Source: an uncultured Prevotellaceae bacterium
GTDB taxonomy: Bacteria > Bacteroidota > Bacteroidia > Bacteroidales > Bacteroidaceae
NCBI GenBank assembly: GCA_902786565.1
Contig: CADACW010000004.1
Coordinates: 43,650 to 107,649 of the forward strand
Direction of reading: 5' to 3'
Length of the DNA: 64,000 nucleotides
The position numbers were made by a program, and so were the translations under genes. The notes beneath the pieces were generated by a model. That model was not told where the DNA came from. It made no database searches and saw nothing but the letters and a program-made list of their open reading frames with translations. Positions 29,401 to 63,883 of the stretch are shown in pieces (position 1 is the first letter of the stretch; every line of letters begins with the position of its first letter).

Positions 29401-29445
29401 AGTCAGAAAACGTTTTTACTGTTTGCTATAGTTGTTTTGTAGGTG

Positions 29446-29476
29446 CAAAGTTACGAATTTTATCTGAATCAACAAA
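29446..29476 (-). promoter_or_regulatory. Promoter of the tsaB-DUF4290-murA-rimM operon
   Basis: Minus strand TTTG (29473-29476), 19 bp, TAACTTTG (29446-29453): an exact consensus match. The predicted transcript start is about 40 nt upstream of the GTG. Confidence 0.85.
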
Positions 29477-29554
29477 AAAAGGGAAGATTATTTTTGTTTT
29501 CCACCAATTTAATCGCCAAACCCATGTAATATATAAGTGGTTCGCATACGGGAT

Positions 29555-29694
29555 AAACATGCCGCCGCCCCGTGGAAAACAAGCCGAAGGCCGGACCTAA
29601 AACTTAAATTACGTCGTAATTTAAATAAATTACGTCGAGCCGTTAAGTTTATATCCTGGCAAAAAATGTTTTTGGTCCGGCCTCGCGCATGTTT
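29555..29694. repeat. Nested inverted-repeat element containing two 21-bp-spaced AAATTACGTCG iterations
   Basis: Three concentric perfect inverted pairs: AAACATGC (29555-29562)/GCATGTTT (29687-29694), GGCCGGACC (29589-29597)/GGTCCGGCC (29674-29682), and AAACTTAA (29600-29607)/TTAAGTTT (29643-29650). Inside the innermost pair are two copies of AAATTACGTCG at 29606 and 29627, 21 bp apart. A related four-copy array is at 50044-50136. The element lies directly left of the DnaA-box cluster. Confidence 0.8.
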
Positions 29695-29719
29695 TTCTGC
29701 GGCCAACCCATTGTTTTAT

Positions 29720-30020
29720 GGTGTGGAAAACTGTGGATAAGTGTGTGGAAAACTGTGTGGAAAAAGTGGGAAAGCGCTGGTGGAAAACAATTCTGTGTAT
29801 AAAAAGAGCTGTTTTTGCATAGTTTTTTGAAACTTTTCCACTCAATTTGGCCGAAAAAAAATATAAACTTTGTAAATTTGCACCGAAATTGGAAATTGTG
29901 GATAACTATGGCAGATGCCTCATTTTCAAAGAGAAATAATTAACAACGGCTGTAGATAACCCGAATACTGGCGGTGGAAAACGAAACGGACAAGCAAAAG
30001 GCCGGAAAGTTATCAACTTA
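29720..30020. other. Candidate chromosomal replication origin (DnaA-box cluster with AT-rich stretch)
   Basis: The gap of 689 bp between tsaB and nadA (29401-30089) has no gene. On the plus strand TGTGGATAA occurs exactly at 29732-29740 and 29897-29905. One-mismatch forms: TGTGGAAAA at 29722, 29744 and 29756, TGTGTATAA at 29794, and TGTAGATAA at 29951. Weaker ones follow (TTTTCCACT at 29834; TTATCAACT near 30010). All strong boxes have the same orientation. An AT-rich stretch suitable for unwinding lies at 29853-29890. Genes read away on both sides: five on the left, nine on the right. No skew could be computed and no dnaA gene is in the window. Confidence 0.6.
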
Positions 30021-30089
30021 TCAACGCCCCATCATCAGAATCATTCCTATTTTTTAAAATTAAAAAAAAGAGAGAAATAAAATAATGCA

Positions 30090-31079
30090 ATGTTGAAAAA
30101 CGAATGGAAAGAACAGGGCTTCATCGACGAGGCCGCAGCCGCAGGCACTGACCTGTCGGCCGAAATCAGACGTATGTGCCAGGAGAAGCAGGCTGTGGTA
30201 CTGGCCCACTACTATACCGACGGCAGCATACAGCAGGTGGCCGACTTCATAGGCGACTCGCTGGCGCTGGCCCGCAAGGCTGCAGAGACCGATGCAAGAA
30301 TCATTGTGATGTGCGGCGTGCACTTCATGGCCGAGACGTGCAAGCTGCTCTCGCCCGACAAGCTGGTGCTCTGCCCCGACCTGAACGCCGGCTGTTCGCT
30401 GGCCGACTCGTGCCGGGCCGACGATTTGCGCCGATACAAGGCGGAGCACCCTGGATATAAAGTGGTGAGCTATGTCAACACCACCGCCGCCGTCAAGGCG
30501 CTGACCGATGTGGTGGTGACCAGCGGCAATGCCAAGAAGGTGATTGACACCTTTCCGCAGGACGAGAAGATTATCTTCGGGCCCGACTACAACCTGGGCA
30601 GTTATATCAACAGCCTGACCGGCCGGCAGATGCTGCTCTGGCAGGGTGGCTGTCACGTGCACGAGCGCTTCTCGGTAGAGGGCATCCTGGCCTTGAAGCG
30701 CGAGCACCCGCAGGCCCTGGTGCTGGCCCACCCGGAGTGCAAGGGACCCGTGTTGCGGGTGGCCGACGTGGTAGGCTCTACGGCGGTGCTGCTGAAATAC
30801 GTGGTGGAGCACCCGGAGCAGGCATACATCGTGGCCACCGAGGCAGGCATCCTGTTTGAAATGCAGCGCCAGTGCCCTCAGACACAGCTCTACCCCGTGC
30901 CGCCTGAAGTGAGCGAGGGTAGCGTGGGCTGCCACTGCAACGAGTGTCAGTATATGAAGATGAACACGCTGCTGAAGGTCTACAACACGCTCAAGTACGA
31001 ATGGCCGCAGGTGGAAGTAGACCCCGCCATCGCCATCGATGCGGTGAAGCCCATCGAGCGGATGCTTGAACTGTCGTGA
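30090..31079 (+). CDS. nadA: Quinolinate synthase A
   Basis: [4Fe-4S] enzyme that condenses iminoaspartate with dihydroxyacetone phosphate to quinolinate in de novo NAD synthesis. 329 residues, normal length. Seen: VVLAHYYTDGSIQQVADFIGDSLAL, VMCGVHFMAETCKLLSPDK, and the cluster-ligand cysteines in DLNAGCSLADSC, LLWQGGCHVHERF and GCHCNECQYMKMNTL. The start ATG is at 30090. nadB and nadC are not in the window. Its TGA overlaps the GTG start of the next gene, so the two are translationally coupled. Confidence 0.96.
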   Translation: MLKNEWKEQGFIDEAAAAGTDLSAEIRRMCQEKQAVVLAHYYTDGSIQQVADFIGDSLALARKAAETDARIIVMCGVHFMAETCKLLSPDKLVLCPDLNAGCSLADSCRADDLRRYKAEHPGYKVVSYVNTTAAVKALTDVVVTSGNAKKVIDTFPQDEKIIFGPDYNLGSYINSLTGRQMLLWQGGCHVHERFSVEGILALKREHPQALVLAHPECKGPVLRVADVVGSTAVLLKYVVEHPEQAYIVATEAGILFEMQRQCPQTQLYPVPPEVSEGSVGCHCNECQYMKMNTLLKVYNTLKYEWPQVEVDPAIAIDAVKPIERMLELS

Positions 31080-59550: not shown

Positions 59551-61374
59551 TTAGGGATGAAAATGTTGATAGACGATTTCGGCCTTTGCTTTTCCCATTA
59601 TTTTCTCCAGTTCAGTCTGTTCTGTTTCTTTGATTTTCTTGATTGATTTAAGTGCTTTCAGTAGTTCGTCCCGCGTTTTAGGGCCAATGCCTTTTATTTC
59701 GTCAAGTTCAGAATTTAAGGCCCTTTTCGAGCGTTTTTCCCTGTGGAATGTGATGGCGAATCGGTGCACTTCATCCTGTAGTCTCGTCAAGACATGAAAG
59801 AGTTCTGAGTCTGTTTTCAGCCCAATGACTCGTGGCGGGAATCCATATAGTAACTCATTGGTTCTGTGGCGGTTGTCCTTAGCCAAACCTGCGATGGGAA
59901 TATCCAAGTTCAGTTCGTCTTGTATCACCTCACGGATTACCTCCATTTGTCCTTTTCCTCCGTCTGCCACAATTAGGTCGGGTAGGGGTTCATCCTCATC
60001 CAGCAGCCGTTTGTAGCGCCGGTGCACCACCTCTTTCATAGACGCATAATCGTCCGGGCCCACGACCGTCTTGATGTTGTAGCGTTTGTAATCTTGTTTG
60101 CTCGGCTTCATGCTTTTGAAGACCACACAGGCGGCTACAGCATCGGTTCCTGATATGTTTGAATTGTCGAAACATTCTATCTGATAAGGCATCTTTGGCA
60201 GTCCGAGCTTTTCTTGTAGCTCCTTCATCAGCCTCACTTGTTTCTGTTCGGGATTCAGTTTTTCCGCCTGCTTCAGACGGTCGAATTTATACTGCTTTCC
60301 ATTCATTTCCGACAGGTTCAGCAGCGTCTTTTTATCACCAGCTTTAGGTACAGTAAACTTCACACCAGCCAGTTCCATTTGCGGGTTGAAGGGAACAATG
60401 ATCTCTTTTGATTCGCTCTTGTATCGCTCCCGCATTTCTATTATACCCAGCTGCAGCAGTTCTTCCTCACTCTCGCTGATTCTCTTTTTATATTCAAACG
60501 TGAAGGATTGGTTGATGGCTCCGTTAGCTACGTGGATGTAATTGATATAGGCTATCTGTTCATCGTTTGTGATACTGAAAACATCCACGTTGTCTATGGT
60601 GTGACTTACCACCTCGCTTTTGCTGACGAATGATTCTATCAATAGGTATTTCTTTTTTATTTCTTCTGCTTCCTCAAACCTTAATTCTTCGGCGTATGCT
60701 GTCATTTGCTCCTTCATTTCCTTCAGGATTTGCCTGGTATTCCCTTTAAGGATTTCTTTCGCCTGACGGATGCTTTCTTGATAGTCTTCCACCTTTTGTT
60801 TTCCGACGCAAGGTCCACCGCATTTTTTGATGTGGTAATCCAGACAGACTTGGTATTTGCCCCCTTCAACGCCCTCTTTAGTTATCGGCTGTTTACAGAG
60901 ACGGGGACGGTATATCTTCTGAATGAGTTCCAGCACGGCGTACATCGACCCAATGTGTGAGTAGGGGCCATAGTAAGTGCCCCATTTCTTGTTGATGGTT
61001 CTCGTTCTGAAGATTCTTGGCAGATATTCATTCGTAACGCAAATGCTCGGATAAGTCTTTCCGTCTTTCAGCAGAACATTGTATCTGGGGTTGTATTTCT
61101 TTATGAGCTGATTTTCTAAGAGGAGTGCATCTTCTTCCGTGTTGACAACGGTATAGCTAATGTCGTATATCTTACTTACAAGCACTTTGGTCTTAAACCT
61201 GTCCACTTCGGTGTGGAAATATGAAGATACCCTTGCTTTAAGGCTTTTCGCCTTGCCCACATAAATAATAATATGGTTGATGTCGTAAAACTGGTAACTG
61301 CCCGGTTTCTCAGGCATACTGCTCACGATGTTCTTCAGATAGGCGAGCCTCTTCTCGTTCTCCTCCTTGCTCAT
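59551..61374 (-). CDS. uvrC: Excinuclease ABC subunit C
   Basis: Makes both incisions in UvrABC nucleotide excision repair. 607 residues, normal length. GIY-YIG nuclease at the N-terminus (KPGSYQFYDINHIIIYVGKAKSLKARVSSYF, in part), a central UVR segment (EEMKEQMTAYAEELRFEEAEEIK-like region about 215-245), the C-terminal RNase H-like nuclease (IECFDNSNISGTDAVAACVVF, in part; LIVADGGKGQMEVI) and a final helix-hairpin-helix pair (LDEIKGIGPKTRDELL). Base composition is visibly less GC-rich than clpA or dxs. It lies 37 bp downstream of apt; the gap contains a parS-like site. Confidence 0.97.
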   Translation of the reverse strand: MSKEENEKRLAYLKNIVSSMPEKPGSYQFYDINHIIIYVGKAKSLKARVSSYFHTEVDRFKTKVLVSKIYDISYTVVNTEEDALLLENQLIKKYNPRYNVLLKDGKTYPSICVTNEYLPRIFRTRTINKKWGTYYGPYSHIGSMYAVLELIQKIYRPRLCKQPITKEGVEGGKYQVCLDYHIKKCGGPCVGKQKVEDYQESIRQAKEILKGNTRQILKEMKEQMTAYAEELRFEEAEEIKKKYLLIESFVSKSEVVSHTIDNVDVFSITNDEQIAYINYIHVANGAINQSFTFEYKKRISESEEELLQLGIIEMRERYKSESKEIIVPFNPQMELAGVKFTVPKAGDKKTLLNLSEMNGKQYKFDRLKQAEKLNPEQKQVRLMKELQEKLGLPKMPYQIECFDNSNISGTDAVAACVVFKSMKPSKQDYKRYNIKTVVGPDDYASMKEVVHRRYKRLLDEDEPLPDLIVADGGKGQMEVIREVIQDELNLDIPIAGLAKDNRHRTNELLYGFPPRVIGLKTDSELFHVLTRLQDEVHRFAITFHREKRSKRALNSELDEIKGIGPKTRDELLKALKSIKKIKETEQTELEKIMGKAKAEIVYQHFHP

Positions 61375-61395: not shown

Positions 61396-61411
61396 TGTTT
61401 CACGTGGAACA
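61396..61411. promoter_or_regulatory. parS-like centromere site, exact consensus
   Basis: TGTTTCACGTGGAACA; its complement TGTTCCACGTGAAACA is identical to the well-known ParB-binding parS consensus. It occupies the uvrC-apt gap and abuts the apt stop codon (61412-61414). Confidence 0.88.
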
Positions 61412-61939
61412 TTAGAGCGTCATGAGTGTTGACAACTCTATACCCTCAAATAAATCCCTGCCGTGCAGCCCTTCGTCTTTGATTTCGATGATGAAGTTCA
61501 TGTATGTGGCCTTTGGGTGAAAGTGCTGCACAAGTTTGTATGCAGCCTTTGCTGTTCCTCCCGTTGCCAGCAAATCGTCGTGAATCAGAACTATATCGTT
61601 TGGTTCGATGGCATCGATGTGCATTTCTATAGTGTCTACGCCATACTCTTTGCTGAACGACTCCTTGATGACTGTTGCAGGTAGTTTCCCAGGTTTCCTT
61701 GCCAGCACCATACCGCAGCCCAAACGACCGGCCAATGCTGCTGCCATTATGAACCCACGACTTTCTATGCCTACAATCTTTGTTATGCCCTTGTCTTTGT
61801 AGATTTCATAGAGTTCGTCAAGCATAATTTTCATACACTCTCCGCTTTTGTAAAGTGTTGTCACGTCGCGGAAATTGATTCCTTTCTTTGGAAAGTCTGG
61901 AATACTTCTCAGGTTTTCCAGTAATACTTTGTTGTTCAT
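61412..61939 (-). CDS. apt: Adenine phosphoribosyltransferase
   Basis: Salvages adenine to AMP with PRPP. About 175 residues from ATG 61939 (MNNKVLLENLRSIPDFPKKG), the usual family start; the frame could extend to 61978 but that would run into the parS-like site. Seen: GINFRDVTTLYKSGE, GIESRGFIMAAALAGRLG, VLARKPGKLP, and the PRPP-binding motif VLIHDDLLATGGTAKA. It is flanked by two parS-like sites, with mnmG upstream and uvrC downstream on the same strand. Confidence 0.95.
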   Translation of the reverse strand: MNNKVLLENLRSIPDFPKKGINFRDVTTLYKSGECMKIMLDELYEIYKDKGITKIVGIESRGFIMAAALAGRLGCGMVLARKPGKLPATVIKESFSKEYGVDTIEMHIDAIEPNDIVLIHDDLLATGGTAKAAYKLVQHFHPKATYMNFIIEIKDEGLHGRDLFEGIELSTLMTL

Positions 61940-61970
61940 TTTGCTGTTTATTAATTGGTTGTTTGTTCTC

Positions 61971-61986
61971 TGTTCCACGTGAAACT
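61971..61986. promoter_or_regulatory. parS-like centromere site, 15 of 16 bases
   Basis: TGTTCCACGTGAAACT, matching the parS consensus except for the last base, which belongs to the mnmG stop codon (complement of CTA at 61985-61987). It lies 575 bp from the exact site at 61396. Confidence 0.82.
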
Positions 61987-63883
61987 ATCTTCCCATCAGC
62001 ACCAGCAGTACGTTGATGTCGCTTGGCGATACGCCTGGTATGCGGCTTGCTTGGGCCAGCGTTTCCGGGTCTATGTGGGTGAGTTTTTGCCGTGCTTCCG
62101 TCGAAAGCGACTGAATGGTGTTGTAGTCGAAATGCCCTTTTATCCGGATGTTTTCCAGTCGGTGCATCTTTTCTGCCACCTGTTTTTCCCGCTCAATATA
62201 TCCTTTGTATTTGATGCGTATTTCGGCAGCCTCCGCTATTTCCTCCTTTCGGTTTTCTGGCGTGTTCAGCAGTTCTTTCAGTTCTGGAATATGTTGCGAA
62301 AGATTGGCAAAGTTTAGTTGCGGCCTGGCTATAAGGTCTTCCAGCTTTACGCCGAACTGTAGTGGGGTAGTGCCCATCTGTTGCAAGGCGGGGTTGATGT
62401 CCTTGGCTTTGATGGGATAGTTCCGGCAAAAACTTTCGATTTTTTCGATAGCATTTTTCTTCTCAATCCACCAGTCCAATCTTTCTTTTGTGGCCAGTCC
62501 CAGGTTGTACGAGCGTTCCGTCAAGCGTGCGTCTGCATCGTCCTGTCTTAGCAGTATGCGGTATTCAGCCCTCGACGTAAACATTCGGTAGGGTTCGTCC
62601 ACTCCCTTGGTGACGAGGTCGTCTATCAGTACGCCGATGTACGATTCGTCTCGCTGCATCACAAAAGTTTCGCTTCCATCGCATTTCAAGGCCGCATTTA
62701 TGCCCGCCACCAACCCTTGGCCGGCAGCTTCTTCATAGCCCGTCGTGCCATTTACCTGTCCGGCCATAAACAGTCCGTCGACGACTTTCGACTCCAAAGT
62801 GTGTTTTAATTGTGTTGGGTCGAAGAAATCGTACTCTATGGCGTAGCCTGGGCGGTACACCTTGACGTTGCGGAAGGCTGGCATTTGCTTGAGTGCCTCA
62901 ATCTGCACGTCCATCGGCAGCGACGACGAGAAGCCGTTCAAGTACATCTCGTTGGTGTTTTCTCCCTCTGGCTCCAAGAAGAGGGGGTGCTTGTCTCTCT
63001 CGGCGAAAGTGACCAATTTGGTCTCTATCGACGGGCAATATCTCGGTCCAATCGACTTGATTTGCCCATTGTATAGCGGTGAATCCGCCAGTCCACTCCG
63101 CAAAATCTCGTGCACTTTAGTGTTTGTGTTGCACGTCCAGCAGGGCAGTTGCTTTAGTTTTCCGGCCTTTGTGGCTTCCACATTCTTGTTCAGATAGGAG
63201 AATCGGTAGTGTCTTTCCTCTCCCGGTTGAATCTCCAGACAACTGAAATCTACGCTTCTCCTGTCTATTCTAACCGGCGTACCCGTCTTCATTCTTGCAG
63301 AGCGGATGCCGTGTTTGATGATGCTTTCAGTCAGTCCCGTGGCGGGCGGTTCGGCAATTCTGCCTCCAGCTACCATTTTCCGGCCTATGTGTAGCAGTCC
63401 GTTCAGGAAGGTACCCGCTGTAATCACCACACAACGGGCCATTATTTCGGCTCCCCAGATGGTTCTGATGCCGCGTACTGTGGGTTGTGGCTGCTCATCC
63501 ACGATGAGTTCGCACGCCTGATCCTGCCAGATGTCCAGGTTAGGCGTCTGGTCCAATACGCTCCTCCATTCCCAAATGAATTTGCCGCGGTCACATTGGG
63601 CCCTTGGGCTCCAAACGGCTGGTCCTTTGCCTATGTTTAGCATACGGAACTGGATGCACGTGGTGTCGGTGACCCTGCCCATCTGCCCTCCGAGGGCATC
63701 GATTTCGCGCACTATCTGTCCTTTCGCAATCCCGCCCACCGCCGGATTACACGACATCTGCGCAATCTTGTTCATATCCATTGTCACGAGCAGCGTCTTT
63801 GCGCCCATATTGGCGGCGGCACAGGCAGCCTCGCAGCCAGCATGACCGCCTCCAACGACCACAACATCATATTTCAGTATCAT
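61985..63883 (-). CDS. mnmG: tRNA uridine-5-carboxymethylaminomethyl modification enzyme MnmG
   Basis: FAD enzyme that, with MnmE, modifies the wobble uridine of several tRNAs. 632 residues, normal length. Seen: the FAD motif VVVVGGGHAGCEAACAAANMG (in part), MSCNPAVGGIAKGQIVREIDALGG (in part), the PVRIDRRSVDFS region, QVNGTTGYEEAAGQGLVAGINAAL (in part) and DDLVTKGVDEPYRMFTSRAEYRILLRQDDADARLT (in part). Starts at ATG 63881-63883. In many bacteria this gene (gidA) sits beside the replication origin; here it is next to parS-like sites and about 32 kb from the candidate origin. Confidence 0.97.
   Translation of the reverse strand: MILKYDVVVVGGGHAGCEAACAAANMGAKTLLVTMDMNKIAQMSCNPAVGGIAKGQIVREIDALGGQMGRVTDTTCIQFRMLNIGKGPAVWSPRAQCDRGKFIWEWRSVLDQTPNLDIWQDQACELIVDEQPQPTVRGIRTIWGAEIMARCVVITAGTFLNGLLHIGRKMVAGGRIAEPPATGLTESIIKHGIRSARMKTGTPVRIDRRSVDFSCLEIQPGEERHYRFSYLNKNVEATKAGKLKQLPCWTCNTNTKVHEILRSGLADSPLYNGQIKSIGPRYCPSIETKLVTFAERDKHPLFLEPEGENTNEMYLNGFSSSLPMDVQIEALKQMPAFRNVKVYRPGYAIEYDFFDPTQLKHTLESKVVDGLFMAGQVNGTTGYEEAAGQGLVAGINAALKCDGSETFVMQRDESYIGVLIDDLVTKGVDEPYRMFTSRAEYRILLRQDDADARLTERSYNLGLATKERLDWWIEKKNAIEKIESFCRNYPIKAKDINPALQQMGTTPLQFGVKLEDLIARPQLNFANLSQHIPELKELLNTPENRKEEIAEAAEIRIKYKGYIEREKQVAEKMHRLENIRIKGHFDYNTIQSLSTEARQKLTHIDPETLAQASRIPGVSPSDINVLLVLMGR

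Follow-up and report, generated by a model that had tools for sequence, protein, structure and literature searches.

A putative parS centromere beside mnmG in an uncultured Prevotellaceae bacterium and its relatives

The closest described counterparts of the sites reported here are the centromeres of chromosomal ParABS systems, for which Bacillus subtilis Spo0J-parS and Caulobacter ParB-parS serve as points of reference. The parAB genes usually lie close to parS, an arrangement that is not required. For Caulobacter ParB, the available portion of one study lists Q162, G170, K171, S172, R173, N178, G201, and R204 as parS contacts, describes R173 and G201 as conserved in all extant ParB orthologues, and gives Q173 and R201 as the marks of Noc (PMC7383237). 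In gut bacteria, parS sites have been called with up to two mismatches, and the origin was found not to lie systematically with dnaA; for Bacteroides caecimuris and Muribaculum intestinale, the accessible part of the same report describes ParABS homologues and an origin placed by clustered parS sites and GC skew (PMC10197239).

Here, two palindromic sites in a 64,000-bp stretch of DNA from an uncultured Prevotellaceae bacterium (hereafter, the window) are compared with these systems. Judged from sequence comparison, the two sites very probably constitute the chromosomal centromere (parS) of the organism’s ParABS system. A ParABS centromere is a known kind of system; the less ordinary part is the steady address of the sites beside mnmG, apart from both parAB and dnaA.

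Two palindromes and a candidate ParB

The sites lie in the gaps of a minus-strand run, mnmG-apt-uvrC, that spans positions 63883-59551 of the window. The features concerned are as follows:

59551-61374, minus strand: uvrC, starting at 61374 (TIGR00194, 500 bits)
61396-61411, no strand assigned: predicted parS site 1, TGTTTCACGTGGAACA, 0 mismatches, in the apt-uvrC gap, 21 bp before the uvrC start
61412-61939, minus strand: apt, adenine phosphoribosyltransferase (NCBIfam NF002636, 194 bits, over cut-off)
61971-61986, no strand assigned: predicted parS site 2, TGTTCCACGTGAAACT, 15/16 matching, in the mnmG-apt gap, its core ending 32 bp before the apt ATG
61985-63883, minus strand: mnmG (gidA), the landmark gene that anchors parS (TIGR00136, 802 bits)

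MnmG and UvrC each score over the cut-off of their main NCBIfam model; Apt passes the Apt models NF002636 and NF002634 and falls just below the cut-off of TIGR01090. The GC content of the window is mostly 0.50-0.64 up to ~53 kb and 0.44-0.51 beyond 54 kb, and sampled stretches of a complete genome of the same genus (G108) are near 0.37.

Measured against the reference parS 16-mer, TGTTNCACGTGNAACA, and its 14-bp core, GTTNCACGTGNAAC, both window sites are perfect in the core. The initial annotation had described an exact 16-mer abutting the apt stop and a 15/16 match overlapping the mnmG stop by two bases, and both descriptions were confirmed. Because the stop codon of the minus-strand apt occupies 61412-61414, site 1 touches it; because the mnmG TAG occupies 61985-61987, site 2 overlaps that codon by two bases. 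The single mismatch of site 2 is its outermost base, which is the A of this TAG.

A genome-wide motif search turned up nothing as good outside the pair, in line with the initial annotation: across 4.03 Mb, matches with zero or one mismatch occur at the two window sites only, 575 bp apart. Since the assembly is 92% complete and divided into 130 contigs, a further parS site could have been missed. Weaker matches carry no weight of their own. In the window, five matches with up to three mismatches were obtained against 2.69 expected, so that the weak ones are meaningless, and with up to two mismatches the whole genome gives 11 hits, fewer than the 30 of the reversed-pattern control; two-mismatch near-matches alone are therefore noise. 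With the reversed control higher, own-genome matches carrying two or three mismatches were rejected as extra parS sites.

A profile search of the genome returned two ParB-like proteins over the family cut-off. One is encoded on contig C2 (L232), where parB and parA lie side by side on the same strand; the presence of parB, on which the initial annotation depended, was thus borne out, with parA adjoining. The C2 ParB scores 191 bits with TIGR00180, matches Pfam ParB_N, HTH_ParB, and ParB_C, and carries GERRWRA as its CTP box, and the adjoining ParA carries KGGVGKTT. The protein was aligned to structure chain 6t1f, which we take to be Caulobacter ParB, with residue numbers transferred via the GKSR and GHAR motifs. 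Equivalents of Q162, G170, K171, S172, R173, N178, G201, and R204 are all kept, with Y at position 179 and K at 184. In a sequence comparison with solved structures, the top two were Noc entries followed by ParB entries at nearly the same score; overall similarity therefore does not tell the two families apart. The contact residues favour ParB over Noc as the probable identity of the C2 protein. The second ParB-like protein (C7:25790-26335; L013, L233) is part of a 563-aa frame close to another frame with abundant DGDGY repeats, and the impression is that it may belong to a mobile element.

Conservation beside mnmG

Conservation can be followed in loci chosen without regard to parS. Eighty named loci among the matches listed were picked by MnmG search alone; the closest of them, at 82% identity, belongs to an uncultured Prevotella of red deer. 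The 1300 bp that follow mnmG contain the exact 14-bp core in 73 of these 80 listed loci, and in the other seven it was not found there. When “near mnmG” is defined as 1300 bp after the gene plus 400 bp before it, the 80 listed loci contain 108 cores in 132,035 bp near mnmG (107 after the gene, one before) and six in their other 583,367 bp; across all 80, no reversed core was found. A motif-free count over the 150 nt after the mnmG match gave CACGTG as the commonest 6-mer, present in 68 of the 80 listed loci (in 100 simple shuffles, the most frequent 6-mer reached 41), and CACGTGAAAC as the commonest 10-mer, present in 60 of the 80 (at most five in shuffles). Among the 21 closest of the listed loci (L235-L255), 20 have the core in both gaps flanking apt, and the remaining one, L243, ends before uvrC. 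The listed loci include four under the title Bacteroides and six under Parabacteroides, each with one core.

At the level of the family, the exact 16-mer is present in 68 of 121 genomes, and the reversed control in none. Thirty exact loci outside the own genome were listed, 27 of which lie beside mnmG, apt, or uvrC; regarding the other three among the loci listed, G016 and G093 have an additional exact site beside mnmG, and in G103 parS is 7 kb from mnmG. The 53 family genomes that lack the exact motif include 50 with a match to Apt, in some cases a weak one. A one-mismatch site is found in an apt-flanking gap at 27 of the best 30 of these 50 Apt loci, and no site at the other three (L046, L054, and L055); no mnmG or uvrC was detected around apt at L054 and L055. 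The conservation in relatives proposed as a check in the initial annotation is thus strongly positive, in view of 68/121 family genomes with the exact motif and 73/80 of the listed MnmG-chosen loci. The accompanying remark that placement in operon gaps is unusual was not borne out, as such placement is usual for the lineage.

The pattern extends further. In the order, 42 of 60 genomes contain the exact motif (reversed control, 0/60); of the 41 matched genomes besides the own one, 39 have a site no more than 700 bp from mnmG, and 49 of 54 sites fall within this distance, 46 of them at the 3' side. In the phylum, the motif was found in 72 of 99 genomes (reversed control, 1/99). The matches listed cover 41 of the 71 matched non-own genomes at this level, and mnmG could be located in 34 of the 41. 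In 31 of these 34 listed genomes, a site falls no farther than 700 bp from the gene; 54 of 61 listed sites are adjacent to it in this sense, with 36 on the 5' side of mnmG, 17 on the 3' side, and one inside. The exact motif is missing from 44 order and phylum genomes, 43 of which gave mnmG. A site with up to two mismatches lies near mnmG in 38 of these 43 (25/30 and 13/13; flanks of 1.5 or 2 kb), and in the remaining five, none was found within the same flanks even at two mismatches. At G128:C2:98855-100927, the mnmG match falls in two pieces within one long frame, perhaps through an insertion, with a parS-like site at the 3' end (L201).

The initial annotation had presented the sites as a pair around apt. 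Their position is as described, but apt is not the landmark: among the listed loci without apt after mnmG, the site is kept in 10 of 12, which makes mnmG the landmark instead.

The regularities around apt nevertheless bear on whether the sites are true parS with a second role, in which the ParB complex on them also adjusts apt and uvrC transcription. Of 52 mnmG-apt sites (drawn from 51 of 54 loci), 22, from several genera, have a core that ends 34-35 bp ahead of the apt ATG, although the interval between core and mnmG stop ranges from 0 to 140 bp; in addition, four loci of the own genus share a distance of 41 bp to uvrC. A precedent exists in Pseudomonas aeruginosa, where, according to the available part of the source, ParB at the intergenic parS3 and parS4 represses downstream genes (PMC7022226). 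Conversely, 30 of the 52 sites are at other distances, the window being one with 32 bp, and the loci are related, so that the spacing count does not represent independent events. A promoter-type motif sought in the 34 bp before apt yielded a loose A/T-rich pattern only. Such dual use is a tentative possibility, and on balance an unlikely one.

The same spacing, with its promoter- or leader-like geometry, could instead reflect operators bound by a regulator of nearby transcription, such as one of apt in purine salvage. Against this stand the retention of the site in listed loci without apt after mnmG, the 5' location of 36 of the 54 adjacent phylum-level sites listed, the identity of the sequence with the ParB consensus, and the presence in the genome of a gene for a parS-type ParB. 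An operator function is therefore very improbable, and an operator of apt alone was rejected on these grounds. The sites are also palindromes in short operon gaps, a feature that would suit an mRNA element of the mnmG-apt-uvrC run, whether hairpin or terminator. Of the 107 sites after mnmG among the matches listed, 43 have the asymmetric sequence GTTCCACGTGAAAC on the strand of that gene and 13 its reverse complement, the others being 40 T-A, 10 C-G, and one A.G. The prevailing form would present on the mRNA strand a C.A combination that does not pair, and the minor one a pairable U.G; this orientation bias, which shared descent may explain, thus speaks against a hairpin. With sites occurring upstream of mnmG as well, an RNA-level element is scarcely credible and was rejected. 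Chance, to which matches with two or more mismatches conform in being at or below chance level in the window and the genome, is a negligible explanation of the two sites, being refuted by their conservation in relatives against reversed controls of 0/121, 0/60, and 1/99 genomes.

Replication origin, parAB distance, and Smc

According to the initial annotation, the parS sites support a candidate origin about 32 kb away in the window. Two features are relevant to this claim:

29440-30089, no strand assigned: candidate oriC, AT-rich intergenic DNA in which three DnaA boxes (29732, 29794, and 29897) are exact
30090-31079, plus strand: nadA, which in three genomes of the genus adjoins the cluster of DnaA boxes (Pfam NadA, 387 bits)

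The candidate oriC contains up to seven DnaA boxes (at most one mismatch each) in 500 bp. In G108 (140 kb searched) and G004 (120 kb searched), the densest DnaA-box cluster is likewise upstream of nadA, and the distance from the cluster to parS is 33 kb in G108, 36 kb in G004, and 32 kb in the window; no cluster of this nadA-upstream kind was seen in G098. Cumulative skew minima in those stretches fall at 1.499 Mb in G108, 3.237 Mb in G098, and 2.627 Mb in G004, the last being 2.4 kb from parS; the minimum of the window is at 42 kb.

GC skew was also sampled over the two complete relatives, G108 and G098, in 20 stretches each. In G108, the skew turns from negative to positive between ~1.50 and 1.58 Mb, and apt is at 1.5426 Mb; in G098, it does so from ~3.22 Mb on, and apt is at 3.2327 Mb. 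The signal is noisy: besides samples near the switches, three of the 20 in G108 (1, 1225001, and 2450001) and one in G098 (3450001) run against the trend. The proposed link to the candidate oriC is supported by the GC skew of G108 and G098 and by the DnaA-box cluster, which the window shares with G108 and G004 and which was not seen in G098. By these signals, parS appears to lie close to the replication origin. In the own genome dnaA is on contig C14, and in both G108 and G098 it is 0.8 Mb from apt; on these grounds, dnaA was rejected as an origin neighbour.

The parAB genes of the own genome are not near parS, the two lying on different contigs. Among 91 genomes in which parB was placed, it is on another contig than the parS or mnmG locus in 72. 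The other 19 have both on one contig, at distances from 0.30 Mb (G180) to ~2.3 Mb (G210) and none closer, where single contigs were taken as circular and rounded sizes were used if only those were given. A below-cut-off parB match lies 22 kb from mnmG in G231.

Smc was sought with TIGR02168 in 13 genomes. It exceeds the cut-off in three (G183, G185, and G229) and not in the own genome; none of the eight family genomes in the set has one above it, and weak partial matches are present in all 13. The own genome thus does not encode, by this model, the Smc that a loading site for Smc-ScpAB would presuppose. This result agrees with the available portion of a published account, in which two Bacteroidetes members have no known condensin (PMC10197239). 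The smc match at G229:C1:416677-420188 consists of two overlapping pieces, one with two TGA codons inside, perhaps as a result of a frameshift.

Comparison with known systems

As a ParABS centromere, the two sites would be served in trans by ParB made from parAB elsewhere in the genome. ParB would bind each 16-bp palindrome, and the bound protein would close as a CTP clamp and slide onto the flanking mnmG-apt-uvrC DNA. Replication would start at the oriC ~32 kb from parS, and soon after its start ParA would move the origin-proximal ParB complex to the daughter cells. ParB binding, clamp loading, and segregation at these sites are predicted from sequence, and the gaps themselves may be kept for ParB loading, as the initial annotation proposed. 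A broader scenario, speculative and on balance unlikely, would have the centromere of the phylum fixed at mnmG while parAB and dnaA moved and Smc was lost in the family, with the parS between mnmG and apt also forming part of a conserved apt leader and so coupling ParB loading to apt and uvrC expression.

From the perspective of application, mnmG together with GTTNCACGTGNAAC provides a marker for the centromere and the likely origin region in genomes of this phylum, and one that is usable in fragmented metagenome assemblies, where dnaA misleads. The findings further raise the questions of why the centromere stays at a tRNA-modification gene when parAB, dnaA, and in part Smc do not, and of what role ParB has at parS in cells without a recognisable Smc.

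A literature search returned no title or abstract that puts parS of this phylum at mnmG; the Livny 2007 survey was beyond its scope and may list such sites. In the available portion of the study that reports parS clusters in gut bacteria, neither mnmG, apt, and uvrC nor a conserved place is named (PMC10197239). With Noc and its NBS sites, the present system shares a ParB paralogue, a related palindrome, and, in the own ParB, the Noc-like K at 184; unlike Noc, the own ParB has R173 and G201 rather than Q173 and R201. From the ParABS systems of B. subtilis and Caulobacter it differs in the location of parB, 0.30-2.3 Mb from the sites in 19 genomes, and in Smc, which does not reach the cut-off in the own genome or in nine of the 12 others. 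With the same systems it shares the 16-bp palindrome, a ParB with a GERRxRA box and contacts of the R173/G201 type, a ParA encoded next to ParB, and sites near the likely replication origin.
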